In this document: piece after piece, positions 17,075 through 52,742 of the stretch
How the letters are laid out: each line of letters starts with the position of its first letter
How positions within the stretch are numbered: the stretch's first letter is position 1
Source: Neelides folsomi
Taxonomy: Eukaryota > Arthropoda > Collembola > Neelipleona > Neelidae
Reading direction: 5' to 3'
DNA: 64,000 bases
NCBI GenBank assembly: GCA_034687125.1
Contig: JAQGBZ010000099.1
Coordinates: forward strand, 1 to 64,000
Notes under the pieces: model-generated
What the model saw: the letters and a program-made list of their open reading frames with translations, nothing else
Database searches by the model: none
Told to the model about the DNA's origin: nothing
Translations under genes and position numbers: made by a program

Positions 17075-20000
17075 ATGACCTTAGAAGATGAAGAGAATGC
17101 TCGAAACAGGACGAGGAAGTTAGGTCTTCCAGTTCTCCTCATCTTTCTCATTTTGTCCATCATCTCCAAAGCTTACACTTCTTGGGAACCTCAGGAAGAC
17201 GACTACGCTTCTTGTAATCGATCCAGACAAATATTAGAAAATTCATTGTGGGGGTTCATCACCGATGGACCTTCCAATTACACACACGATTCTCATTGTG
17301 AATGGCTTATAAAAGGTATGAATTTTCTGATTAATTTAGTTAATTTAATTAATTAATTACATATTTCCATTTCATTATTTTAATTTGATAAATTTCATGA
17401 AAGCCATAATAATTATTTTTTATTTTTAATAGCTCCTATAGGCCAATACATCACTCTTCGAGTCAATAAAGTGCGGACAGAATGTTCTTACGACTATCTT
17501 TTTATATTTGATGGCGATTCGTACTTAAAAAATACATCACTTTTGGCTTCGATGAGCGGCGGGGCTCATCCAAGCAATGTTACTTTTATTGCTCGTTCCG
17601 GAAATGTAATTAATCAATATTTAAACCTAATCATTATTTCATTATCATTATTTCATTATCATCGTCAGTATTTTTAATAAGGTTCATTCCTTACGATCAT
17701 TTTTACTTTTTTCTTACTACGATTAATTAACATTTACATTTTATAAAGAACTAACTTTAACTTTTTTTAAGATTTTTCTGGACTTACATTTAATGATTTT
17801 TATATGAATTTTTCATTTACCTTTAGATGCTGATTCTGTTGTATTCTGATACAAATTACGCACTTGAGGGTTTTACAGCTGAATATCACATATCGCCATG
17901 TCCTCTTAATTGTTCCAATTCCGGCTCTTGCGTTTCGAATCCTGAAGGAAATCTCGCCCATTGTGAATGTTCCGAAGGTCGTAAAGGAGAAGGATGTCAT
18001 CTTGTCGAAGGAGGGAAAGAATTAACGGTAGAAAGTCAGCTTATTGGAAATTACGCTCTTTCCCCTTCAGAATCCATTGAATTAATCGGACACTCAGCGG
18101 TTGAAATCGAAGGGCAAGTTTTCATCTTCGGGGGTTTCAATCTCAACGTTTATCTCTCATCTCTCAAAATCATTTCCTTCAACCCCGTCCAAGTAAAGAA
18201 AATCCTTACGCGAGATTCCCTCAAAATCATCACCAGAAGTGACGAAGAAAATCAAGACATTACAAACGAAGGAGATCTCGCCCCAATTGATAAAACTAGC
18301 TTTAAGAAACAAGATCTTTCCCATGTTTGGCCAGAAGGTCGCTACGGCCATGCTTCAGCTCCATACCGCCAAGGGTTTTTTATCCATGGGGGAAAAAGTG
18401 CCAAGAAGATTTCTAACCATCTCTACTATTTCAATGCAACGCGTCTCACTTGGACCAGATTTAAAAATTCTTCCCTCCCGCATTTGATGTACCACTCGAT
18501 GACCATGGTTCCATCGGGACATATTTACGTCTACGGGGGTGGAACTTCCTCAGGGGATTTTTCCTCAAAACTTTATGTCTTCTCCGGGGATTCTCCTTCA
18601 AATTGGACCGAGGTTGTAAGTCATTGTTGTGGGAAACCTCAACATCGGGCAATTCTGGGTCATACGATGAGCTACTGGGAGAAGAAGAATTCCCTTCTGA
18701 TATTCGGCGGGCTTGGGCCGGACAACGGCCGATTTTCTCGTCTGTCACATCAAATGTGGCTCTTTAATTTGGAATCTCTCACATGGTTCCAAGTGGATTA
18801 TCCTAGAAATAATGCAATAATGGCTGAAGGATCAGCTCGGGCTTTTCACACGGCTCATATCTTCCACGAGTACCTGTGGATTGTTGGCGGATATACTCAC
18901 ATTCATAACAAGGACGAGTCCTGCTATTCCAGCCATCTCCTCAGTTATAATTTAGAATGTCAAGTATTTTTACATGAAAGTGATTTAAGCCAAGGAGTTT
19001 TTGGCCATCAGAGCATTTTACGCGGAGATGAAATTTTCATTTTTGGAGGTTACAGAGGATTTCTTTCTTCTCGAGTGGAAAAGGTTAAGGTTTGGACATG
19101 CAAATCTCATGCAGAACGATGGGATTGTGCAAGTGACCCTTCTTGCGGTTGGTGTCCGGCTGATGAAAAATGCTATGAGAAAATCCCTGGAAGCAAATCT
19201 TGCACGACGAATCTCCAATCAGCTCCTTGTGCCGGGATGTGTCCTTTAATGACCAGCTGTCAAACCTGTGTGAGTATTTCTCCATCCAGCTCTTGTTTTT
19301 GGTGCGAACAACTTAATAAATGCATCGGATCGACTGAATTCCAAAACGCGTGTTCGAGCGGAGCCCTGAAGAGAAATTATTCTGAATGTGTTACCAACAC
19401 CAAAGGTCAACGTGGAGTGACCCTGTTTGAATATAAACATCCTTTTAATTTCTCTAATCCGGACTTGGTCCTAAGAGTTAATGGAACCGTAATTCACCTA
19501 CCGAGAGATTTGTCTTCATTGGAATCCGGACCTTCGACCTTTGCCCTTAAAGGATTCATCAAAGGAGCGAGTCATCCCCACAAGCTTGAACTTTGTGCAA
19601 CCAAAGCTGAGACGAATTTCTCTATGAGAGATTCAATCAATACGCTTGAAAGCATTGGGGAAGAAATTCACGAACAGATCCGATGGTCAGACACACAAAC
19701 TTGCTTAAATTTAACTTGGCCAACCGGAGTTCAAGTTATGATCTCACCCGATTCCAAATTCATATTTGAAATGTCTGCGGTCAATAAGGAAACGCCAATC
19801 ACTGGGATTGAACAACCCCAGAAGGGGGGAAGCTTTGTGAGTTTACATCAACAATTTATGCAAACTGTTCGGGCAATTCTTCAACCAAATCTTTTACCTT
19901 ATTTGACCGATGGGAAGAAATGTTCTACAGAAACAAATTGTTTGGCTTGCGTGGGAGATTCTGCTTGTCTTTGGAGCGAAAATAAATGCAAATCAAGATT

Positions 20001-23000
20001 TTCATTAGGAGAAAATCATCTTAATTCTTCGACTGAAGCCGTGATTGAGAGCCGAGACTGCGTGGTTTGTAATGACATGTCTTCGTGTACCGAATGTCTT
20101 CAAAGGGACGAATGCGAATGGTGGGAAGAGGAAATTACTTGTGCTAGGAGAGGAAGAATTCCAACAGCGACGAGAGACAAAGGTTTATGTCCGCCTGATT
20201 GCCATCTTAGAACAAATTGCTCATCTTGTTTGACCATGGCTGGAAAATGTGTATGGTGCGAAGAAAAACGGTAATTTTTAGTTTTATATTAATACTAATA
20301 ACGATTGCTAATTACTAATTAGGTTTAATGTTTAATTAACTACTTTATTAATTTGTTATTTTAAATTGATTTTTATTTATTTGCAGAGAATGTTTTGTCT
20401 TCTCTGTCTACACAAGTTTTTACCAATATGGTCAATGTGTTCAATGGATCGACAAACCTCAACAGTGCCAAAGGTGTGAAAAGCAACCGTCTTGTAACGA
20501 ATGTATTAAAAATCTCGGTTGCGGTTGGAGCTACGATGACACAGGAGGATTTTGCACTGAAGGAGATTTCTCTGGATCTTACCTTGAAATTGAAGAACTT
20601 CTTAAACAGTCAAATGCTCTTTCTCCTGAAAAGACCAATAGAACTTGGGCGTATGCTGATTGTCCTGATGTTAATGAATGTGAATTGAATATTACGAAAC
20701 TTTGTCACGAAAATGCAACTTGTGTCAATACACCTGGATCATATAAATGCCTCTGCCAGCAAGGTAAATTATATTTAATTCCTTTAAAATGGAAATTATT
20801 TTATACATAATTATACGTAATTTAATTTTAATTGTGTATGTAATTTTGTTAATTATTACTTTTATACTATTTTATATTTATAGGGTTTACCGGTGATGGA
20901 CGAGATTCATGTGAAAAGACTTGTTGGGAGCCTTGTGTGCACGGAACATGTTCTTCTGATTACATTTGTGAATGCAATTTAGGGTAAATAAGAAAATTAA
21001 CGATAATTTATTTATTTAACGAGTTTCAAATTAATAGTGATTTTTAGGTATTAGTATTTAAAGAAATAGATTAATGGGTATTATTATAAAATCAATTATT
21101 ATTTTTCTAGATGGACAGGTGTTGATTGTTCCATTGATTGCGGTTGCAACAATCATTCTTCATGTGAAACTGGAATTTGTGATGAATGTCAAGAAAGAAC
21201 AATGGGAGAACATTGCCAAATTTGCACCTCTGGAAGTTTCGGCGATGCAACAGATTCTAAAATCGGATGTAATCAATGCAACTGTAATGGACATGGAGAT
21301 GAATCTTTCGGTCTTTGTGATTCAACAACAGGAATTTGTTTCTGTCTTAATAATACAATCGGCCCATTGTGCTCAGAATGCATGGAAGGATATTACGGTG
21401 ACCCGATCGATGGCCGACCTTGTTACCGAAAATGCGGAGGTCGAGTTCTTGAACAAATCTCAGGATCCCCAAAAGGATATTTCGGATCACAAATTCCATT
21501 CTCAAAGGATCCCAAAGCTCTTCAACATTGTCTATGGGCCATTTCTGCCCCCAAAGACGGAGACAAACGCCATATTTTAATTCATATCGAACCTGGGTTT
21601 CAAGTTCCTTGTAGTCAAAATGTAATTAACATTTACAGCGGATTTCCTACATTTGGAAGAGGAAGAGATCCGCAATTGGTGGCTTCTGTCTGTCTCCAAG
21701 GTGGAACTTGCAATGGCGGCGGTTCTTGTAACGACGGTGGAAATTGTAACAGCGGGATTGAAGAGGAAGAAGACGGCCGTGGAGTTTTTGTAGTTGTTGA
21801 AGGAGATTTAGCAGTTATTTTATTACAAAATGTTTCTCCACGAGCCTTTGGATTCAACGCTTCCTTCCAAGTTGTTCCAGGAAGTCCGATGGGACATCGA
21901 GTTGACACGTCGACTTCGTTCCATCCTTTGAAAGTGTCAAAATTGTATGAAGGGAATTCGGTCCATTCGAGATTTGGTCATTCGCTTCATGTGGACGAAT
22001 GGAATGTTTGGATTTATGGCGGATATTCGCTGTCACTTGGACCCTTGGATGATATTCGGCAATTTAGTCGAACTATGGCTAAATGGGTTCCTGTAACTAT
22101 TACAGTTGATGATCATAGGTAACTTATTAAATTATTAACTTTACTTTAATCTAATTGAGATTTTATATTAATTGGGATTAATTTCATATTAAGTTAATTA
22201 TTAAATTTTAGAAATTCCAGTCAAAGTGTTGCAGCTCCCCCGGCAAGATATTTCCATGCAGGTGTTCTCGGCCAAAATGGTTTAATTTTCATTCATGGGG
22301 GAATTTCCCAAAGTGGAAGTTTCATGTCCGATACTTGGAAATTCGACACACGTGGTTCTCGATGGCGTCGCTTACAACAAAACGGTCCTGTACTTGCCGG
22401 CCACACTTTAAATATCCGTGGGAATGAAGAATTAATAATCATTGGGGGTTTCAATCCCCAGACCGGATTTTCCAATTCAATTTGGGTCCTCAATTTGAAA
22501 GAAGACGGCGGTTGGAGTGAGCGGAACACAACGGGAGCTTCGCCCATTGGGATTTATGGACATTCTTCAGCGTTCCATAAGAAAACCGACAGCCTTTACG
22601 TGTTTGGAGGAATTTTACATGAAGTGAATTGTGTGGACGTGTCGGGGAAATTATTTTCATTACATTGGCCAAGCAAACGCTGGTCAGTTCTTCCTCCCAC
22701 TGAAGACAATCAAATTCTCAAACTCCCTTCAAGACGTCTTTTCCATTCTTCGGTGACCTCTGATGAATATATGGTGATTGTTGGGGGCGGTCGAAGCCCA
22801 AGTTTGTTGGCATATTCTTATGCTTGCAATCTTTGGTCGACTCTTGGAGATATTCGCGAATTGAACCTCCGTGGCGGAGCTTCGTCCCTTTGGGGAAATG
22901 AATTGCTTTTCCAAGGTGGATGGTCGAAAGGAAGGACAATTGAATCATTGTGGAAAATTCCACTTCCCAGAGACATCTGCTCAATACAGACTTCATCCGA

Positions 23001-26000
23001 GGGATGTAAAGCAACACTTGGATGTTCATATTGTTCATCGAATAACAATCACAGTCAGCAATGTTACACTTCCGATTTGGAGATGCCAAGCCAATGTTCA
23101 GAAGGAGCGAGCAATATTAATTTTTGGAAAGGAACAGTTTGCAATAAAGAATGGATGGATGCGAGGAATTGCAATACTTACAATTCTTGTTTTGAATGTC
23201 TGGCTTCTTGGCCGTCTTTTCCATCTTCTAAACCTGTAAGTAAAATAATTATTATTGCCATTTTATTAATATCTGTAATTATTCATTAATGAAATTGAAT
23301 TAGGTAATTATACTTAAATTAAGTGTAATTAGTAATTAATAATTTTTTATTTAAAGTGATTTTAATGTATTTTTAATTAGGCTTGTCAATGGTGTATCAA
23401 TTGCCAAGTTGGTCGCTGTGTCTCTGCAGGCAAAAATTGTGCTGAAGACATTCCCAATTCTCCTTGTAACATTGCACAAACGAGAAATATCAGTGATGGG
23501 GATGCGTCCCATTGTCAAGAACGTGTTTGTCCTGCGAGCGAATGTGAGAAATGTACAACACTTGGGAAATGCATTTGGACTCGTCAAGTTCTTCGAACAA
23601 GTAATTGATAATTTAAACAAAAATAAGGATTAGTACCTAACTTTTAATTACATTGGGTTAATATTTAATATTAATGATTTTTATATTTTAGATGATTGGA
23701 GTACAAAAGTTCATTCTCAGCCAGTTTATGCATGGAATTGTGTTCGAATGTCGATTTTAGACAACGTTTCCTTCACTGTTGTTTCAACTCCTCCTGCTGA
23801 ATGTCCAAAACCTTGCAGTTCATTTACAAATTGCGAAGAATGTTTAGGAAGCCCCGGTTCAGAAGGATTGTTCCACGAATGCCAATGGAGTACATTACTC
23901 GGAAAATGTATTTCACCTGCTCATAAATGGCTACTTTGTTTTGGAGGTGTTTGTGGACTTGTTCTTAAAGGCGGAGATCCAGGAATTTGTCCGAAACCTT
24001 GCACAGTTTACAAATCTTGTTCAACCTGTCTTGAAATTCCATCATGCGGGTAATTACAATTATTATGTTACAATTATTTGTAATACATTTTATTTCATTT
24101 ACATCTAGCATTGATTTAATATACTAAATGCTTATCAGGTATCTAAAATATAATTAATTTTAATTTAATTTAAAAAAGTTAAATTAAAATTTCCAGATGG
24201 TGTGGAAAAGAAGGAAGCAACGGAGAAGGAATTTGCTCCCTCGGAGATTCAATTGGAAGCGAAGAAAGAAACGACACGAATTGCGCTCCACTCAATTGGA
24301 ATTATTTAACATGTCCAGAAGAAAATGAATGTACGAATGGTCACCACACATGCGATCCTGATTCTGAAGTTTGTATCGATTTGTCTGAAGGCTTCCGATG
24401 TGAATGTCGTGAAGGATATGAACGTGAAGGAGAGTCTTGTACTCCAATTTGTAATCAGGGTTGTGAACATGGTACATGTGTAGCTCCTAATAACTGTACG
24501 TGCCATTTTGGATTCGTTGGGACCAATTGCACACATGAATGTCAATGCAATGGGCATTCGATGTGTGCAGGAATTGACCAACTCGATGTTTGTCTCAATT
24601 GTCAGAATAATACAATGGGGCCGAATTGTAGCCAATGTAAGCCGATGTTTGTTGGGAATGCGAGCAACAGCGGGACTTGTGTTTCTTGTTCGGAATATTG
24701 CAACGGCCATTCGGATGTTTGTTTGGAAGAGAAACATTACAACAAATGGTGTAACAACAGCGGGAGTTTGGATGAAACTTTTTTGAGAAAAATTCAGCTT
24801 GATGTTAAAACTGGACCTGTCAATGATGCTTTTTGTTGTGGTTGTAAAAATTATACAACTGGAGAAAAGTGCCATAGTTGTCATCCTGGATTCTTCCGCG
24901 GGACGGAAGACAAAAGGCTCAGTTGCAGGAAATGCGAATGTCATGGGCATGGAGATTCCTGTGATTCAACTTTTGGACATAATTGCGAATGTAATAATAA
25001 TACTGAGAGCGAACATTGCACAGTTAGCTCTGGAAAGGTAAAATGATTAAAATTAATTAGTCAATTAGTTCACAGTTTTAATAAGCAATTTAGTTTTACT
25101 ATTTAATTGACAATTTAATTATATTTTTTAATTGGCAATTATTTATACTTTTAGTGTTGGAAAGTTCAATGTGCAAAATGTCGAGAATATTTTTTTGGAA
25201 CTCCAACTCATGGACATCAATGTTATAGGCAAATGTTTGTTGAAACGGATTATTGTTTTGATCCTAAATCTCAAGGTAAAGATCCAAAAAATAATTAATT
25301 GATAAATGTAATTTTTATCTATTAATTACAAATCTTTCTTAATGTTAGTTAAACGAATGAATAACTGATTAACTGATTTTATATTTTATAGAATCTTGCA
25401 CAATGAAGCCTAAACCTCTCCTTTCTGGAAAAACTGTGTTTTTTGCTGTTCAACCAAAATTTATGAACGTAAATATTCGGATTCATCTTGATGTTACGCA
25501 CGGAGCTGTGAATGTTTATTTGAGTCCTAAAGAAGATACATTTGTGATTAAACAAGATGACAAGACTTCTTGGATGCATCATGTATTCAAGATATTTAAA
25601 TAATAAGATATAATTATGAAAATTCAAATTTAACGTTTTTGCAATTTATATCAATTTATTTATACAAATTACTTGCAATTTTTCAACGTCTTTTTGAATT
25701 TTAGATTTCCTTTGACCAGAAATACAGCATTGGAGAAGGAAACCCTTATAAAGAAGAAAAGAGTGATCCGAAATTCAACAACATTTCAATTGATGAAGAG
25801 AGCAATGGATTATTAAATATGAAATCCAATCTTAATACCAAGTTGTTGTTAATTGAGGAAGAAGCTGCTGGTTTCGCCACCCATGTGACTGTTGTTGATC
25901 CAAAAACAGTTCTTCTAGTCAAAAATTTGCGAAATCGGCTTGTAGTCACACTCCCTCAAGTAAAATTACTAAATTACACAATTAGTCGAATTACAATCAA

Positions 26001-29244: not shown

Positions 29245-32200
29245 TTATTGATCCCAATTATCTTTAATTATGTTCAATACCATGGAATGTTTCTCTTCCA
29301 TGATGAGGTGGCTGTCCCAGGAATTGCTTCCCCCTTGTTGATCCATTTTAGGTAAATGCTGTTCCATGTGTTCAAAGGACTGGTAAGGATACATGTTCCC
29401 TCCGGTTCCAGCCATGTGCAGCATTGGACCTCCGTTCATTACTTGTCTTTGACCATCATACAGCTAAATTTAAAAAAATTACATTTTAATTTTAAAAATG
29501 TGCACTTTAATTGTAATTAAGTTAAATAATTAAAAATGTACAATTTAATATAAAATGAAATGAAATTTATTGTAATTTAATATAAAATAAACCTGTTGGA
29601 AGTCAATAAGATTTCTTGGTTCAATTTCCTCCATGAACCTTCGCCCAAGGAAATTTCTCGAGTCTCGATCTCGAGGCCCATGAGGATTCTGTTGACCTAA
29701 ATGGGCCGGAGGAGCAGACTGAGGTGGAAATCCTTGAGAATTCCCCGTTGATCCATAAAGGTTCATCCAAGTTTGAGGTGGCGGTTGGCCATGATGAGGA
29801 CCAGGAGGATTCCCAGGAATTGGAGGTGGAAGTTGTTGGGCCGTTGAGTCCAACTCTAAACCAGAGAAACTTGACATGTTTCCAATGCTTCCTCCAGTAC
29901 CAGAACTTCCACTTGTGTTCTTCCAGGCTCTTTCTCCACCAATAGGCCGAGGGAAACGACGGTCTTCTTTACTCTCAACACCATACCCTGAACATAATTA
30001 AAAAATCGTTAAAAATTAAGAAACCATAAAAAATTCAATTTATTTATTCTACAATTTATTTCAATTTAAACCTTAAAATATTTATTTTTAAAGACAATTA
30101 TAAATTCCGGTAATAATAATTAATTAATTAATGTGAGCAAACGCAGGTTCAATATAAAACTATTCATATTGAGGTTTTAGTAAGCTCGTTTAATCTTACA
30201 CACAAAAAACGCCAATTACGCTATGAACTATTCGTATTGGAGCTGGGGTGTGTAAAACCCATGAAATTGTCAACAACTTGTAGTTATATTATAAAAATAA
30301 ATTTAAATTTAATTTAAATTAAATTTACTTTGATTGTCCTGAAGTGGTGTTGGTGCATCAATGTTGGATAAAATTCCTTGAGGATCAATACCCTGACCAG
30401 GACCAAGGTTGGCTAATTGAAAGTCAATGAGGCCTTCATTGGGTTGACCATAGGAATTCCATGACTGGGTCGTTGAAACTGCCGGTCGTCCCAATCTTTG
30501 TTGAGGAAATTGATTAGGGGTTTTGAACTGATGAATCTGTTGGTGGTTCATTCCCCCACAGAATGCATTCCCCTTGAAGCTTGGAGCTCGAGGGTTTAAT
30601 CGTGAAAACGATGCATTTGGTGGTCCTCCTGGACTTCCACTATAAACACAAACACAATAAGAATTAAATTAAATTAATATAATTAATCATTAACTATTAA
30701 CTATTAATTAAATAATTAACCATTCATTAAATTATTAATTTAGATTTAACAAGATTAATTTTAATAAAAATCTGAAAATATGATTTAAGAATTATTACGT
30801 GTTATTATAAAGAAGCTGGCTGTTTCCAGACTCTTGAAGGCTTTGTTGAGAGTAAACAGAAGGGAAATTATGGTTGTTCCCAACACGGTTTAAATTATAT
30901 GAATTCCCAGCCGGCGGTACTTGCTGTTGCTGTTGGTGTTGTTGCTGTTGTTGTTGGTGATGATGCTGGAGTTGTTGGAAATGTGTGAGGTTAGCATCAA
31001 GTCCAAAGTTACCAGGAACTCCACTTCCACCGCTTCCATGATGACTCTGAAGAAGAGGTTGTTGTTGTTGCTGCTGCTGCTGTACTTGTTGTTGTTGCTG
31101 CATGCGAAGTATTGGAGAACTCATCGTTGTATTTCCACGATACCCTGGAGCCTTTGAAGCGTCAGCCTAGATTAAGTAAATAAATAAGTTTTAGATTAAG
31201 ATAATAAATAAGTTTTACAACCCAAAAAGATTATCTTTCTAAAGGAGCAATGAAATCAATTCAAATTAAATCTTAAATAGATAAAAACACAAACACGTAG
31301 TTTGACCGTTTGACCTACTTAAAGTAATATTAATAAACATGAGATTTTTAATAAATCAACTACTTCAGTCTGAACCTCAGACATCGAACGATCGAACATA
31401 CAAAATTAATAATTAATAATGTAAAATAATCACTAAATTGTAATGTAAGTTAAATGAGTTTAATGTTAGCAAACGCAGGTTCAATATGAAACTATTCATA
31501 TTGAGGTTTTAGTAAGCTCTTTTAATTTTACACGCAAAAAACGCCAATATTGATATGATATAACTAATATTGGAGCTGGGGCGTGTAATAGTCCTTTCTT
31601 ATCATATCTAATAACTTTAACTTCATAGTTAAATATTCAATATTATAAAAGACTAACTTAGTTAGCTTTTAATTAGACTAACGTTGATTTCCTATTTATT
31701 CTAATCAGATTTTTTTACTCTAATTAAAAGCTAACTAAAATCGTAACATCAGCAATGTAAATTAAGAGATAATATTCATTAAATATTAAATTACTCACTT
31801 TTGGAACATCCGACTCAATTGCATCAAGGAACTTGGACTGGTTGTGAGAAGGCCCAAGTCCATTTCCCAGTGACGGACCCAAAAATGAGGAATTCATTTG
31901 AGCCGTGGTGTTGATGGTTGAGGATGGAATTCCGGACGCAGCGACGGATGCAAAGTTCATTGCTCGAGAAGCACCGGACCCAACGACTCCAAGACCAAGG
32001 CCGTCTCCACTTCCAATTCCGCCTTCAAACCAATTTGATGTTGGTTTGCTAAACGTGTAATTGAAAGGAGAATATTCCATTGGAGTTGACCCTTCTCGTC
32101 TGAAAAATTTAAAATCATAATTAACTAATTAAGACTAATCTTAATCTTAATTCAATTAATTTAAGTATTCATTATGTATAAGTATTAAATAAGATTTTGT

Positions 32201-35200
32201 TTAAATCATTTATTAATTATTTACCCGCTGTCATTTGAAGGAAGAATCGTTGGTGTAGGTTGAGGTTGCGTGTTATTTGCAACAGTAGCCTTGACCTGAC
32301 CAGGTTGTTGATGTTGAGGGACGGTAACTCCAAATTTGTCTCTTGGAACGTTCATCTGTTGTTGATGTTGTTGCTGTTGTTGGTCAGGAATTCGTGATTG
32401 TTCAATTCCAACAGGAGAAAATCCTCCCACCGGTTTCCCAACAGCTTTCTGTAATGGAACAGGCCTTTCAGCAACTTTTTGATGATGCTGATGGAATCCA
32501 TGGGTCGACTGGCCATTATGCCCAGTTGGTGACATATTAGGTGTGATCACACGTGGAGGTGGACTTGGATCCTTATCAGGAACAGAAGAAGAAGAAGAAG
32601 AACATGGCGGTTTTTGATTCGTCTGGGCTGTTAATTTGGATGCAAAGCTTGGTCCAGAAGAAGGTGAATGCGGAGGTTGCGGAGGGACACTTGGAGTGAA
32701 AACAATACTTCGACCTTTCCCTCCTTTCAATAAATTAGAAATGGATGTGGCTGGTGAGGTCAAAGGTTCTTTTTTGAGTGGTGGTGAAGGTTGGGCAGGT
32801 TTGATCGTAAGTGGTGGAGGTGGAGATGATGAAGATTTAATTTGTTGTTGTTGTGGTGGTGAAGCTTTACTTCCTTTAACAATTCCAACTCCAATTAATG
32901 GTTTAATTGGACCATTTGGATGTGGTGGATCAATACATGGACTTTCAATACCAAATACAGTTGGTGTAATTGTAAATGGAATCGTAGTTGTTGTACGATT
33001 CAAGGAAGGAAGTAATTTTTTAACATCAAGATCAGGTTCATTCATAAGGGCTGTAATGAGATTATGAGCTTGTTTGGTAGCTTCAACTGTTCCTTTAATT
33101 TGAATGGTACGTTCAAGTTGAACTGCTCCTTTTTGTTGTTTTTCAACTTCAATATGAGCTCCAGTAGCTTCACGAATAGCATTAATATTACAACCCCCAC
33201 GTCCAATAACTCGAGAAATGACAGAGGAAGGAACATTAATCTTTTTAGATCTCGATGATGTGCAATTTCGTGTTACTTCTTTCCATCCTTCATCTTTTCT
33301 ACCATGCAAAACATTACTTTTCCCTCCGATGGCACCAGGTCCAGTTGGTGGACTTGTTTTAGGAGTTGGAGCTGTTGCACCGGTATTTGGAACGTGATTC
33401 TCAGAATGACCACCATGAGGTCGAATGTGTTGAGGATGAAGTGAAAGTCCCATTAATGGTTCTAAACCTCCTTCAGTTCCGCCTTTGCCTTTTACTCCTT
33501 TCAATCCGCTATAATTAAATAAACAAAATATTTAATTAGATATTCATAAATTACTTAATTAACTAAAAATTCAAATTATATTAATTCTAGAATTTATGTC
33601 AGCAAACGCAGGTTCAATGTGAAACTATTCATACTGAGGTTTTAGTAAGCTCATTTTAATTTTACACGCAAAAAACGCCAATATTGATATAATAATTCAT
33701 ATTGGAGCTGGGGCGTGTAATCAATATAAATCAATCAATTGAAAATCAATTGAAAACATTATCAAATCATAATCATAATTTAGCAAAAATAATGTAAAAA
33801 TTGTAAAAAATGTTAAAAAAATATTGACCTGCTAAAAATTGGTGGTGGATTTGTAGGTGGTGGATTGTTCCTTGGTGGTTGTTGGGTCATTGGTGGATTT
33901 TCATCCCTTTTAGTTCCCTTCGAACCTTTCACAGCCATTTCAACTTCTTTCAATTTCTCTTTAATGATTTCTTTATTGGTTGGCCCTTGTTGTTTCGTAT
34001 TATTGGTTACTAAGGCTTTTCCTCTCTCACTTCGATCATCTGATGGAGGTTCTTCTTGTTCACGATTTTCTTTTTGTCGCTTATTCTTTTTCTTTCGATT
34101 CTTTCCAGTCATACTAATTGGAGGAGTTTCAATAACAGCCAATGGTTCTTCAATTTCTACAACTTTAGGATGAAATCGTGCTTTGACTCCAAGTCGATCA
34201 GAAACATTGCTCCCTTGTTGAGGATTTTCAATTGGGAGTGGAGGAATTGGATCATCGGGTTCTTCTTCTTCAATTTCTTCATCTTCTTCGTCTTCATCAT
34301 GATTGACAGCTTGTTTTTTCTCTTGTTTCTTTTTCTTTTTCTTTTCACGTCGGCGGGCAGCAGCAAGACGTTTGGATTCTTCCCGACTTCGTTCAGTTTC
34401 AAGTTCTTCAAGGAGGATTGAAGCATTTTTGTTGGCCTCAAGGGCTTGTTTGTCCTTTGCTTGTTTAATATATTCAGCAGCTGTGTTTGACTTCTTTAAG
34501 AGTTCCACTTCTCCCGTGATAGTAATGAGGTAACGTGACATTTCAACATCTGATGGGAATTGTTGAACGTTTTTTACAATCCAACGGATGACCTTTACAT
34601 GACCTTTTCGGAACGCGGCCATGAGGCACGAGATTCTCCGGTTGTCCTGGGCATCAAGATCTGCCCCATGTCGATATAAACTTTGACTCACGTCCAAATG
34701 CCCTCCGTGTGCGGCGAGCCAAAGAGGTGTACATCCCTTCTTATTCCTCACGTCAACAATCGCACCCCTATTCAAAGAATTATTATTTATCAAATATGTA
34801 ATATAATATAATAATCAAGTCAAAAATAATATAATACAATAATCAAATGTAATGTAATATTAAACTGACAACTAATAAAACAAATAAAATATAAAAATAA
34901 TTCCAATAATTATATTATACACGGAACTACGCAATTTATAATAAACAATGAGTGTAATATTACATTCATTATAATTTCCTAAATAATAATTATTCAAAAA
35001 TAGTTTATTAAGGTTATTAACCTTGAGAGTAGGAGTTCGACGAAACGATAGTGGCCTTTGTCAGCGGCGATGGTGAGAGCAGTGTCACGAGTTGCTGGAA
35101 CTGGGGGAGCATTCACATCAGCCCCTTTGTCTAAAAGCACCTTCCCAACTTCCGTATATCCTCCATTGGCAGCCTCCATAAGAGGAGTTAACCCCGTCTG

Positions 35201-38200
35201 GTTAATTATAATTAAATTATTTCAAAACATGTTTATTACTCAATTCTCTATAAAAATGTTAAATCAATTACTCCTATTCAACTCAACTCAATTAAATTAA
35301 ATTAAATTAAATTCAACTGAATTCAATTCAATTCAAATTCAGCTCAATTCAATTCAATGAGAACAATAAAAGTTTAAATGTTTGCAAACGCAGGTTCAAT
35401 ATAAAACAATTCATATTGATGTTTTTAGTAAGCTCATTTAATTTTACACAAAAAAACGCCAATTACGTTATAAATATTCGTATTGGAGCTGGGATGTGTA
35501 ATAATAAAAATTAATGTAAAACAAACTAATAATTATAAAATTTCTGGATTACAAAATACAATTAAATTAAATTTAAAACATACCTTGGCGCGATGTTCGA
35601 GATTGGCCTTCCGTTCCAAAAGGAGTGAAACGACCTCTTGGCGTCCTTGGAAGCAAGCAAGGGTCAAAGCCGTATTCTTATTCGTTTCAATTTGGGCATT
35701 GATATCTGAGCCCATGTCAAGAAGGAGCTTCACAGCTGCTGTGTTCCCATTCATTGCAGCGAGCATAAGAGGAGAAATTCCAAGCTTCGATCCCGTTCGG
35801 GAATTTATTTCTGCTCCATGTTGAAGAAGCAATTTAATAATGTTGACATAACCTCCAGATGCAGCGAGACTCAATGGAGTGTAATCAGACACGTTGCGGT
35901 GTTCTTTGTTAGCTCCACGTTTGAGAAGAAGTTCGACAACCTAAGAGAGAGAAAAATGAATTATAAAATACTTAAAAACGAATAAAGTTAATTTTAAACG
36001 TTTTTAGATATTATAAAATATATACTGTATTATAAAATATATTGTACTATATTTTAAAATATATGATACCATACTATAAAATATATTATAAATCGTTTTA
36101 ATTTTAAAACTCACTTCATAGCGTCCTTTAGTACAAGCAAGGGATAAGGCTGTATCTTTTGTCCTTTCCGACTGAGCTTCAATTTCAGCTCCATGATTGA
36201 GAAGGAGTTCAACAACTTTGTCATGACCTCCATCAGCAGCCAATATAACTGGAGTGCACCCTTTTTTATCTCGATGTTCTATAAATTAATTTTATATTAA
36301 ATCATTTAACATAAAATTGACCCCATGACTTCAAAAACGTTAAAATTAAAAATTCATTCAAAAAACATCAAAAAATATAAAATCTCCAATGTGTGATGAT
36401 AATTACAGAATTAAAAAAAGTTCAATTACCAATCTGAGCCTTCCTTCCAATGAGGAACTCAACAACTTCATAATGTCCTGAAGCAGCGGCAATTGAGAGT
36501 GAAGTTTCTCCATTACTATCAGTTGCTGTATTCACATCAAGCGTCTTTGTTTTGTCAACACCAGAAAGATTGGTTTGAGTTGAGGCCACAGAATGATTCT
36601 GTTTGGTTGTAAGGCCAGCACCAGGCCCAGTTTGTGTTTGTTGGTTCGATTGTCGGACGGGGCCAAAAGGGCGGCTCCGTTTAACTTGAGCCTTCTTTGC
36701 TGGGACGGCTGTTGTGCCAACTGTTGATGGACGGGAGGCTGGTCCAGGTCCCGTAACTACAACCCCAACACCAGCAGCAATTGCACTTTTTGCTACATGT
36801 CCTCGGATGGCTGCAAGTTCCGCATCATTCGTTGGAGTGGATTTGCCGACCTTGGGTTTGGCTCCAGTAGGTCGAACAAGTCCAGCAGCCACAGCAGCAG
36901 CTGAAAATGATTCTGGCAATGGAGGTGGAAATGTGGACGGGTCCTTTTTTCCTTCGCCCTGCCCAGCCATGACATGATAGCCCTACAACCACAATTAAAT
37001 TATAATTATTAATCAAAATTCAACAAATTTAATTTAATTCAATAAATTGTAATATATTTAAAATTTTTAAAATTTTTAATAATTACTACTATTCATTTAT
37101 TGATTTAATTTACTACGATTCATTGATTGAGTATAAATAGAGACTAAAAACCCTAATTGGTGACGTAATAATTAATTCATCTATTAATTAAAGAAGTAAT
37201 GCTCATAGAATTAAGAATGTTAATACTACGTGTGTGTCTTGTATACAATTCTAGTGCTAATAAATTATTTATTTTATTTTTATATGAGAAAAAGACCGCA
37301 GATGAGTCTTCCTCATATAAAGTGAAAGAAAAGAAGGTGGTTACGGGAGTAGAGGGGGAGTAGCAGGCCGTCGTGGCGTTGATGATCATTTCATTTGGTT
37401 GATGGCCGTCGGGCCCACCAGACGCCTCGCCCTCATTAGCAACCACGACGGAGATCGTCGTTCCATTCGCAATTGACGCATTGTGAATATATGGTGACCC
37501 TTGTGACCCCCCAATCAGCTGCCCAAGGTCCAAGTTTTCCGTCTCGCCCTCGTCTCCAACAGCTGTTCCGATTAGAACATTGTTTTTTTATTTCTCCCCC
37601 TTCTCCCTTTTTTTGTGTTTTAACCTTTATTTTCTAATTAGAATTACATTTTGGTTTGAGGAACTGCTGATGCTGAGCAAAGATCTGGCTCAGTTGTTTA
37701 GGGTCGAGCTTGAAATGAGTTTGACCCGGAGGTTGACCTCGCACCTGTTGCACCTGCATTTGAAGAAGAGCCGAAGATGGTGGGAAAGACCCATCTCCAC
37801 CATTTGGACTTAATGGTGGTGGTGGTGGTGGAATTCCACTTTTACAACCCTCAGGTGGTGAGGACCCTTGTTGTTGAAGGAGTTGCTGTTGTTGTTGTTG
37901 TTGAAGTTGGGCCTGTTTCCTTGCACTAGGTTTGCTCGCCTTCGCCTTCGGTCTCTCACTGATAGCTGTGGATGCTGTGACCTGGGATGGGACAAGGGGC
38001 GGACCGCCACCTTTGACATGTTCCGAGTGGTTCTCGGGGTTTTTGACACAATCTGGGCAAAAGCCCTTACGTGCCATTTTCCCATCAGTTGGAATTGGAC
38101 CAGTTGGTTTCTTTCGCCCATCTCCACCACCGCCAGCCGGCTTCTCCCCTTTCTCGGATGAATCTCCGCTCGTCTCCGACTTCTGAGACCAGAAACCCTT

Positions 38201-50936: not shown

Positions 50937-52742
50937 ATGGTTGTTCTCGACGGTCAGAATATGTTAGGAGCCGGCCCTAACCAGTATCTTCAGCCGGATT
51001 ATTTATCCCCACTTCCAACCACCGTAAGTTTAATTATTAAATGTTTTCTTCTTCAAAATCTTTAAGATTTCGAGTCCCAATCTTCTTTTTTTGTCTTAAA
51101 TAAGTTTATAGAACAAAAGTTTTATAAGTTGTAATTTAAATTGGAGGAAACTCATAAAGCGGAACGTGAATTAGCTTAAAAAACAACAAAATTCATTGTT
51201 TTTGTACAAAGTTTTCCTTATGCGATCTTTTTTGTTTTTCTTTGAACGAAGGTTATTAATGCGATTAACAATAAAGTTAATTTGTTAAGGTTGATTTGAT
51301 TTATCTAAGTTGAGTGTTTTTATTATTTCTAGCTCGATGCAAAGAAAAGTCCACTGGCCCTTCTTGCTCAAACTTGCAGCCAAATCGGAGCTGATTCCCC
51401 CAATACCAAATCTCTCCTTCCTTCTTCCATTGGAGATTCAAACAAACGGAAGTCTTCAAGCAGCAGCGAAACTTCAAGTCTCACTTCCGACCAAGGGACC
51501 GTCCAACGTCCCAAAAGCAGTGGAAGTTCAAGTGGTTCAAAAGCAGGAAAATCCTCTCCAGCATTCAAACCCTACGAGACTTCCAAAACCTCGTCTTCTT
51601 CTACCAGGGATTCAACCCGAGAGGAAGAACCCAAAGCCAAAAGGCCGAAATCGGAGATCTCACCTCGGGAATCTCGAGAATCCCGAGATTCACGAGATTC
51701 TCGTGATAGCCGTGAAAGTCGCGATAGTCGAAATGACCGTGTCGATGTCGAGTCCACAAAAGTGTCCAGTGTCCCTGAACCTCCCATAGAAAAAGAAGAG
51801 TCAAATCATAAACGTGAAGGAAAAGTGTCACCCAAATCCTCTGCATCGGCTGTCATCGACCAAGGAGCGTCGCCAATCATTCGATCCGGACTTGAAGTTC
51901 TCCATGGGCATTTGACCGGGTCAAGCGGGAAAGATTTCGGAAAGAGTTTAGCGGGTTTGTCTGCTCTGGGTTACCCGACCGGATTCGACCCGTCGTCGCC
52001 CGCCCTCCGTCCACCTTTTTTCCCGCCCGCTCATCACTTCATGGGATATCCGCCGACTACCGGATCTCCTTATGTTGGCTACACCAGAGTGAAAACCCCG
52101 AGTGGGGCTGAGACGATCGTTCCTGTGTGCAAAGACCCGTATTGTACCGGATGTCAGTTGAGTGTCCCCGGGCTCATGTCGGCCTATTCGCCATTTCCTC
52201 AAAGTGCAAGTGGGGGAGTTTGCCCTGCTGGTTGTGTTCAGTGCGATCATCAAAAATTCCCATTTCCTTCTTCGCCCTTTCTTCCGCCACCTGGACTGGG
52301 CGGGATGGGAAGTTCGGCCGCTGCGGCCGCCGCCGCTTTGGCTTATCCGGGACTTCTTTCTCACCATCATGCGGCTCAACAACAAGCTGCGGTCGCGTCG
52401 GCCCAAAGACCTTTTGTTTGTAATTGGGTCGTTTCTGAGGGTTATTGCGGGAAACGATTCCCGTCTTCGGATGAACTTTTACAGCATTTGAGAAGTCACA
52501 CCGGGGCTGCTTCAGAAGCCGGGGGAATGCCATCACAAGCACAAGCACTTTATTCGTCGGCACTTCTCGGTTCCTCGGCTCTGCATCGGAATTATCCAAC
52601 ACCGCCTTTGAGTCCGCTGTCGGCTGCCAGATATCATCCATATGGGAAACCGCCACAGTCCCCGTTCCCGCCGTCTTTGGCTACTTATTATTCACCGTAT
52701 TCACTCTATGGACAAAGAATCGGCCCACCCGTCCACCCATAA
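50937..52742 (+). CDS. noc: Noc/Elbow NET-family zinc-finger protein
   Basis: Transcriptional co-repressor of the Noc/Nlz/Elbow (ZNF503/703) family, which patterns appendages, trachea and eye-head tissue in flies. Exons 50937-51023 and 51333-52742 encode 498 aa. The intron falls exactly before the conserved block LDAKKSPLALLAQTCSQIGA. Other marks are QYLQPDYLSPLPTT at the N-terminus, the Groucho-binding-like FKPY, a Buttonhead-like VCKDPYCTGC box, and a single atypical C2H2 finger (CNWVVSEGYCGKRF ... HLRSH). A Tyr/Pro-rich end closes with YGQRIGPPVHP. An Arg/Glu/Asp/Ser repeat occupies about 51663-51739. The start is the ATG in AAATGG at 50937. Elbow is a paralogue of the same family, so noc versus elB is not settled. 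Confidence 0.93.

Follow-up and report, generated by a model that had tools for sequence, protein, structure and literature searches.

Four paralogous H/ACA snoRNAs in introns of a mask-type gene of Neelides folsomi, with predicted guides for two neighbouring large-subunit rRNA sites

The window considered here is a stretch of 64,000 nucleotides (nt) of the genome of the collembolan Neelides folsomi (contig JAQGBZ010000099.1 of assembly GCA_034687125.1, positions 1 to 64,000 of the forward strand), and it contains a gene of the mask type, four introns of which each carry one copy, c1 to c4, of an H/ACA small nucleolar RNA (snoRNA). Judged from sequence, we consider it highly probable that these are double-guide snoRNAs that were duplicated within mask and that would guide pseudouridylation of large-subunit (LSU) ribosomal RNA (rRNA) at the equivalents of the yeast 25S pseudouridines (Psi) Psi2944 and Psi2975, with a relative in the gene RpS6 for the first of these sites. 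The copies, their introns, fold, boxes, invariant guides and best rRNA sites, as well as the RpS6 copy, come directly out of the computation. Four paralogous H/ACA snoRNAs in mask introns had been proposed by an earlier, sequence-only reading, and the proposal is supported by the fold, the boxes and their spacing, the invariant pockets, the LSU sites, a likeness of c2, c3 and c4 to the nematode snoRNA family ceN36-1, below its cut-off, and the lack of any transposon-like spread in the genome searches made.

One copy in each of four mask introns

The copies are 127 to 129 nt long, share 83 to 93% pairwise identity and all lie on the minus strand, which is the sense strand of the host gene. Their positions, with those of the introns and of the two open frames that best identify the host, are as follows.

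30129..30256, minus strand: H/ACA snoRNA copy c1, in its own intron, predicted to end in ACA and 3 further nt
31461..31589, minus strand: H/ACA snoRNA copy c2, in its own intron
33594..33721, minus strand: H/ACA snoRNA copy c3, in its own intron
35376..35502, minus strand: H/ACA snoRNA copy c4, its 3' hairpin weakened by an A opposite an A in the basal stem and by an extra A in the pocket
29988..30328, minus strand: host intron of c1, 341 nt, GT/AG ends
31167..31798, minus strand: host intron of c2, 632 nt, GT/AG ends
33509..33828, minus strand: host intron of c3, 320 nt, GT/AG ends
35198..35583, minus strand: host intron of c4, 386 nt, GT/AG ends
32221..33531, minus strand: open frame around the KH-domain host exon (Pfam KH_1, 1.7e-16), stop to stop and reaching slightly into the intron
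33813..34814, minus strand: open frame around the ankyrin-repeat host exon (Pfam Ank, 1.5e-10), stop to stop and reaching slightly into the introns at both ends

Pfam searches with five host open frames returned ankyrin repeats in two, a KH domain in one and no domain in the other two, a combination that we take to be the layout of mask/ANKHD1. The placement of one copy per mask intron holds for all four, each in its own GT-AG intron, and the earlier description of four copies of about 128 nt in separate introns on the host sense strand is confirmed by the coordinates, by the identities and by a search with two core patterns: with up to 3 mismatches allowed, each pattern matched four times, always exactly, against 0.13 and 0.08 matches expected from shuffling. 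Among the titles listed by literature searches on ceN36, on snoRNAs in Drosophila introns, on nematode snoRNAs and on ANKHD1 together with snoRNA, none concerns these copies.

Fold and boxes

All four copies have the layout of a hairpin, an H box, a second hairpin and then ACA followed by three bases. When stretches of 122 to 125 nt, ending 3 to 5 nt short of the copy ends given above, were folded, the z-scores of c1 to c4 were -4.4, -5.5, -3.5 and -3.3, and none of 200 shuffles was as stable in any of the four cases; in c1 to c3 the hairpin-hinge-hairpin-tail fold is the minimum-energy fold. The H box, of pattern ANANNA, reads AGAUUA in c1 and AAAUUA in c2 to c4, and the ACA box, present in the four mask copies and in the RpS6 copy described below, stands 3 nt from the predicted 3' end in the mask copies. 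Counted by hand on alignment columns, pocket and box are separated by 15 nt in the 5' half (14 in c4) and by 14 nt in the 3' half, within the canonical range of 14 to 16 nt. The elements of c1 are listed here in the order in which the RNA would carry them.

30241..30247, minus strand: 5'-hairpin pocket, left guide CCCAGCU, identical in c1 to c4
30204..30211, minus strand: 5'-hairpin pocket, right guide CGUUUUUU, identical in c1 to c4
30191..30196, minus strand: H box AGAUUA, which is AAAUUA in c2 to c4
30174..30179, minus strand: 3'-hairpin pocket, left guide UAAAAC, with an extra A in c4
30144..30148, minus strand: 3'-hairpin pocket, right guide ACCUG, identical in c1 to c4
30132..30134, minus strand: ACA box

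A covariance model built from the four copies also matches the plus (antisense) strand of all of them weakly (21 to 30 bits, window 30134-35507), as is expected because the hairpins are near-palindromic.

Guide pockets and their best rRNA sites

Eukaryotic rRNA was taken from public contigs by means of a sequence pattern, which matched 28 loci. The eukaryote-type letters UUUUACCC lie downstream in 14 of them, with GGGAACGU upstream in 13 of these 14, the remaining locus (L018) being cut there; the other 14 look archaeal in type. Three of the 28 loci were checked with Rfam and all three are LSU_rRNA_eukarya.

The uridines of the LSU and small-subunit (SSU) rRNA of locus L012 were then scanned, except the last few at each end. 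For the 5' pocket, all four copies choose the uridine in GGGAACG[UG]AGCUGGG, with 7+8 pairs and a score of 34 that none of 400 shuffled pockets reached. For the 3' pocket, the best uridine is that in CAGGU[UA]GUUUUA, both in c1 to c3 (6+5 pairs, score 25, next best 19) and in c4 (5+5 pairs, score 23, next best 19), and the score was reached by 12 of 400 shuffled pockets. A second LSU rRNA (L029) gave the same best sites for both pockets. A distance of 31 nt separates the two sites. When 1000 pocket pairs were shuffled, both pockets found a best site in the LSU in 876 cases; in 56 of these 876 the two sites lay within 100 nt of each other, and in none at 31 nt.

Yeast numbering was obtained by aligning to the LSU sequences 14 modified residues of 25S given in a table of PMC8307265. 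A single register matches 14 of 14 letters in L012 (13 of 14 in L029; the next best register matches 9 in each), and the two sites therefore correspond to yeast Psi2944 and Psi2975. By sequence fit, the best partner of the 5' pocket is very probably the uridine equal to Psi2944, guided in yeast by snR37, and the best partner of the 3' pocket the one equal to Psi2975, guided by snR42; the sequence-only reading had named no target. According to the same table of PMC8307265, both pseudouridines lie in the peptidyl-transferase centre, are conserved in human and are less than 85% modified in yeast. PMC1766470 reports that yeast without snR37 has a reduced killer phenotype and reads stop codons more accurately, and describes more accurate reading of UAA and UGA without snR42, and frameshifting shifted by at most 1.2-fold in snoRNA-loss strains.

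Some of the source contigs deserve a remark of their own. L012 (PKCZ01000144.1), L029 (JAIUMW010000194.1) and L025 (JAMFSA010000192.1) are filed as bacterial genome bins and carry eukaryotic LSU rRNA, L012 also SSU rRNA, so that these bins are probably contaminated with eukaryotic DNA. L016 (JAQUQL010000119.1), filed under Dehalococcoidales, has around the pattern an LSU stretch identical to that of the Methanofastidiosum archaeon L009 and is probably misbinned.

Conservation of guides and stems

Not one of 26 guide columns varies among c1 to c4, whereas of the 96 columns that belong to neither guides nor boxes 29 do (Fisher p 0.0005), the guide columns having been picked after the targets were known and without the extra base of c4 and the 1-nt spacer. 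Stem columns vary in 12 of 57 cases (guides against stems, p 0.015) and box columns in one of nine.

The sequence-only reading had held that the outer stem and the upper 5' stem change in pairs between copies and that the structure is consequently under selection, a view which stands in part. Among c1 to c4, one outer-stem pair and no more is altered in both partners, being A-U in two copies and G-C in the other two, and the covariation score is weak, being reached by 65 of 500 shuffles; the four copies alone are therefore no proof of selection on pairing, and we discarded their covariation as such a proof in favour of an outer-stem count over five sequences. In the upper 5' stem, pairing is indeed restored from copy to copy, by a bulge that moves by 1 nt, because of which a count on fixed columns treats two pairs of this stem as disrupted in two of the copies. 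The paired outer-stem changes on which selection can be argued are supplied by the RpS6 copy. Its outer stem is CACAGUC/GACUGUG, and over the five sequences 38 of 38 cells pair, with the RpS6 stem in a hand register and two gapped cells left out; three pair positions are changed on both sides, a count equalled by 4 of 2000 shuffles, which ignore the close kinship of four of the five sequences.

A diverged relative in RpS6 and the search of the genome

The 75 Mb genome was searched by DNA similarity and by patterns, a procedure that very diverged copies would escape, and the counts are lower bounds. The DNA search returned the four mask copies and a 5'-hairpin pattern added one place, which brings the total to at least four full copies and at least one diverged copy in 75 Mb.

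C45:34859-34982 = L036:1494-1617, plus strand: diverged H/ACA copy in an RpS6 intron, a 5'-hairpin pattern match on another contig

This copy is in sense direction, in an intron flanked on both sides by Ribosomal_S6e, and the best solved relatives of the host protein, 6xu6 and 4v6w, are presumably Drosophila ribosomes. The covariance model of c1 to c4 matches it with 38 bits (E 3.3e-7 for the 3 kb locus, match at L036:1492-1584), the match being carried by the 5' hairpin and skipping most of the 3' hairpin. The H box reads AAAGUA, the ACA is kept, and the 5' pocket has the same guides, one base shorter on each side, and the same best LSU site as in c1 to c4. The whole copy folds with a z-score of -1.9 (9 of 200 shuffles as stable) and the 5' hairpin alone with -3.6 (1 of 200). 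The 3' hairpin alone is unremarkable (z -1.1, 27 of 200), differs from that of the mask copies and, under three assumed stem lengths, has no convincing single rRNA target.

Two further searches were set aside. A 3'-hairpin pattern found c1 to c3 alone and is of little weight, because its reversed control matched six places. A looser 5' pattern pointed to C141:98645-98699 (L050), where the covariance model gives no match; the reversed control of this pattern also matched once.

Repeated copies of similar size in AT-rich introns are also what a short transposon family folding by chance would leave. The searches described above found one further copy, with both boxes kept, and no transposon-like spread. 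A total of at least four full copies and at least one diverged copy in 75 Mb, an RpS6 relative that retains the 5' guide and both boxes, and invariant guides that match two neighbouring known rRNA modification sites all argue against such a non-snoRNA repeat, which we regard as close to refuted.

Known relatives and weighing of the assignment

Under permissive settings, the nematode family ceN36-1 (RF01627) aligns over its full length and on the sense strand with c2, c3 and c4, at 32.1, 33.6 and 31.5 bits. Its 5' pocket letters are near-identical to those of c2 to c4 in these alignments, and its consensus pockets likewise fit best to the two LSU sites chosen by the mask copies, in matching order. 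By contrast, its outer stem and most of its 3'-hairpin letters are unlike those of the mask copies, which are moreover four in number and intronic. We regard the mask copies as functional relatives of ceN36-1, probably related to it by descent as well, but do not count them as members of RF01627. This suggests that the Rfam nematode family has relatives outside nematodes.

Other comparisons were made by target. The two uridines predicted for the mask copies are those of yeast snR37 (25S Psi2944) and snR42 (25S Psi2975), two separate RNAs in yeast according to the table of PMC8307265, whereas both guides are on one RNA here; this comparison is by targets alone. Among vertebrate snoRNAs of ACA10/SNORA82 type, chicken GGgACA30 is listed in a table of PMC2653536 for 28S-3976, the snR37 site, a likeness again by target site alone, and its other listed sites, 28S-1612 and 28S-3875, differ.

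Several observations weigh against the double-guide assignment. In c4 the weakened 3' hairpin loses its basal stem from the minimum-energy fold, the upper hairpin still forming, and its pocket has the extra A; the earlier description of hairpin, H box, hairpin and ACA with 14-15 nt spacing thus holds for layout and spacing in all four copies and fails for this one stem. At gathering scores, Rfam finds no family in the window; no copy reaches the ceN36-1 gathering score of 48 bits, c1 has no match to that family at E up to 1, a permissive Rfam scan of the whole window lists none of the four copies as ceN36-1, and the RpS6 copy has no H/ACA Rfam match at E up to 5. Another LSU stretch, GGGAGU[UU]GGCUGGGG, also fits the 5' pocket, though more weakly, with 7+7 pairs and a score of 26 or 27 against 34; the 3' pocket fit is moderate on its own and requires the 1-nt spacer, and the ceN36-1 3' pocket scores 22 at its LSU site, a single point above its runner-up in the SSU (21). 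The LSU rRNA core of N. folsomi itself was not found in the assembly (75.1 Mb, 840 contigs), which is why the targets were tested on rRNA of other eukaryotes. The kinship ignored by the five-sequence stem shuffles belongs with these points.

The permissive Rfam scans also produced matches that were not used: TtnuHACA23 in c2 (25.3 bits against a cut-off of 100), C/D families antisense to the RpS6 copy and, in the window, microRNA and Y RNA families, the last three kinds all far below cut-offs.

Origin of the copies

The duplication of snoRNAs from intron to intron is in general already known: PMC2653536 and PMC3412847 report it for chicken, platypus and nematodes, both in cis, inside one host gene, and in trans, into different genes, and PMC3511168 describes snoRNAs drifting among broadly expressed hosts. 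Like the cis-duplicated paralogs of the former two sources, the mask copies sit in different introns of one gene and have kept their guides; unlike them, they are found in an arthropod, in a mask-type host and as four copies.

The direction and age of the duplication are a matter of inference. In 12 comparisons of 70-nt intron flanks there was no clear similarity beyond shuffles, the closest being reached by 24 of 300, and no shared word indicating a target-site duplication stood above shuffles in c1 to c4 (60, 457, 500 and 249 of 500 shuffles gave words as long), a test weakened by the AT-rich flanks. The homology therefore ends at the snoRNA, which fits either duplications old enough for the introns to have decayed or a copying limited to the snoRNA. 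The recent local intron-to-intron duplication of one snoRNA first proposed is consistent with paralogous copies in sister introns, and its "recent" is unsupported because the flanks share no detectable similarity.

It is possible, if rather doubtful, that the copies are snoRNA retroposons, each intron having received its own insertion of reverse-transcribed mature RNA instead of a copy of intron DNA. The detected homology does stop at the snoRNA ends, one relative is found in another gene (RpS6) on another contig, and retroposed snoRNAs are reported for human and platypus in PMC2653536. However, no target-site duplication exceeds chance in any of the four copies, even in the best case, c1; all four lie on the same strand of the same host gene, and old duplications at the DNA level would look alike. 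Short duplications or A-tails would be invisible in these flanks because they are AT-rich.

Proposed function

We infer transcription, processing, protein binding and the modification itself along the following lines. Splicing of the mask/ANKHD1-type gene would release each copy from its intron, and the RNA would assemble with dyskerin, NOP10, NHP2 and GAR1. The 5' pocket would then guide pseudouridylation of the LSU uridine equal to yeast 25S Psi2944, and the 3' pocket that of the uridine equal to Psi2975, 31 nt away and near the peptidyl-transferase centre. One double-guide snoRNA would have been duplicated into sister introns, with selection holding guides and boxes, and the diverged RpS6 copy may still guide the Psi2944-equivalent site. 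The outcome is a set of paralogous guide RNAs, in one host gene with a dispersed relative, and its predicted assignment to two particular rRNA positions close to the peptidyl-transferase centre.

The copies could also be real snoRNAs that act locally on mask, affecting its splicing or its dosage, alongside or in place of rRNA guiding, since four copies in one gene exceed what guiding needs in principle and the 3' guide hairpin of c4 is weakened. We consider this very unlikely, as the conserved part is the guide pockets and no sequence feature points to such a role.

More speculatively, and with the odds against it, the double-guide snoRNA for Psi2944 and Psi2975 might be an old animal module common to nematodes and N. 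folsomi, amplified here to five loci whose copies are dividing the work, with the 5' guide retained and the 3' hairpin changing in the RpS6 copy and in c4. If this were true, the split copies could tune the degree of modification at the two peptidyl-transferase-centre sites.

Other genes of the window

On the plus strand, long open frames at window positions 17827-25046 resemble by eye an attractin/MEGF8-type protein, with EGF, kelch and PSI-like segments, and an open frame at 51333-52742 resembles, again by eye, a noc/elbow-type zinc-finger protein.

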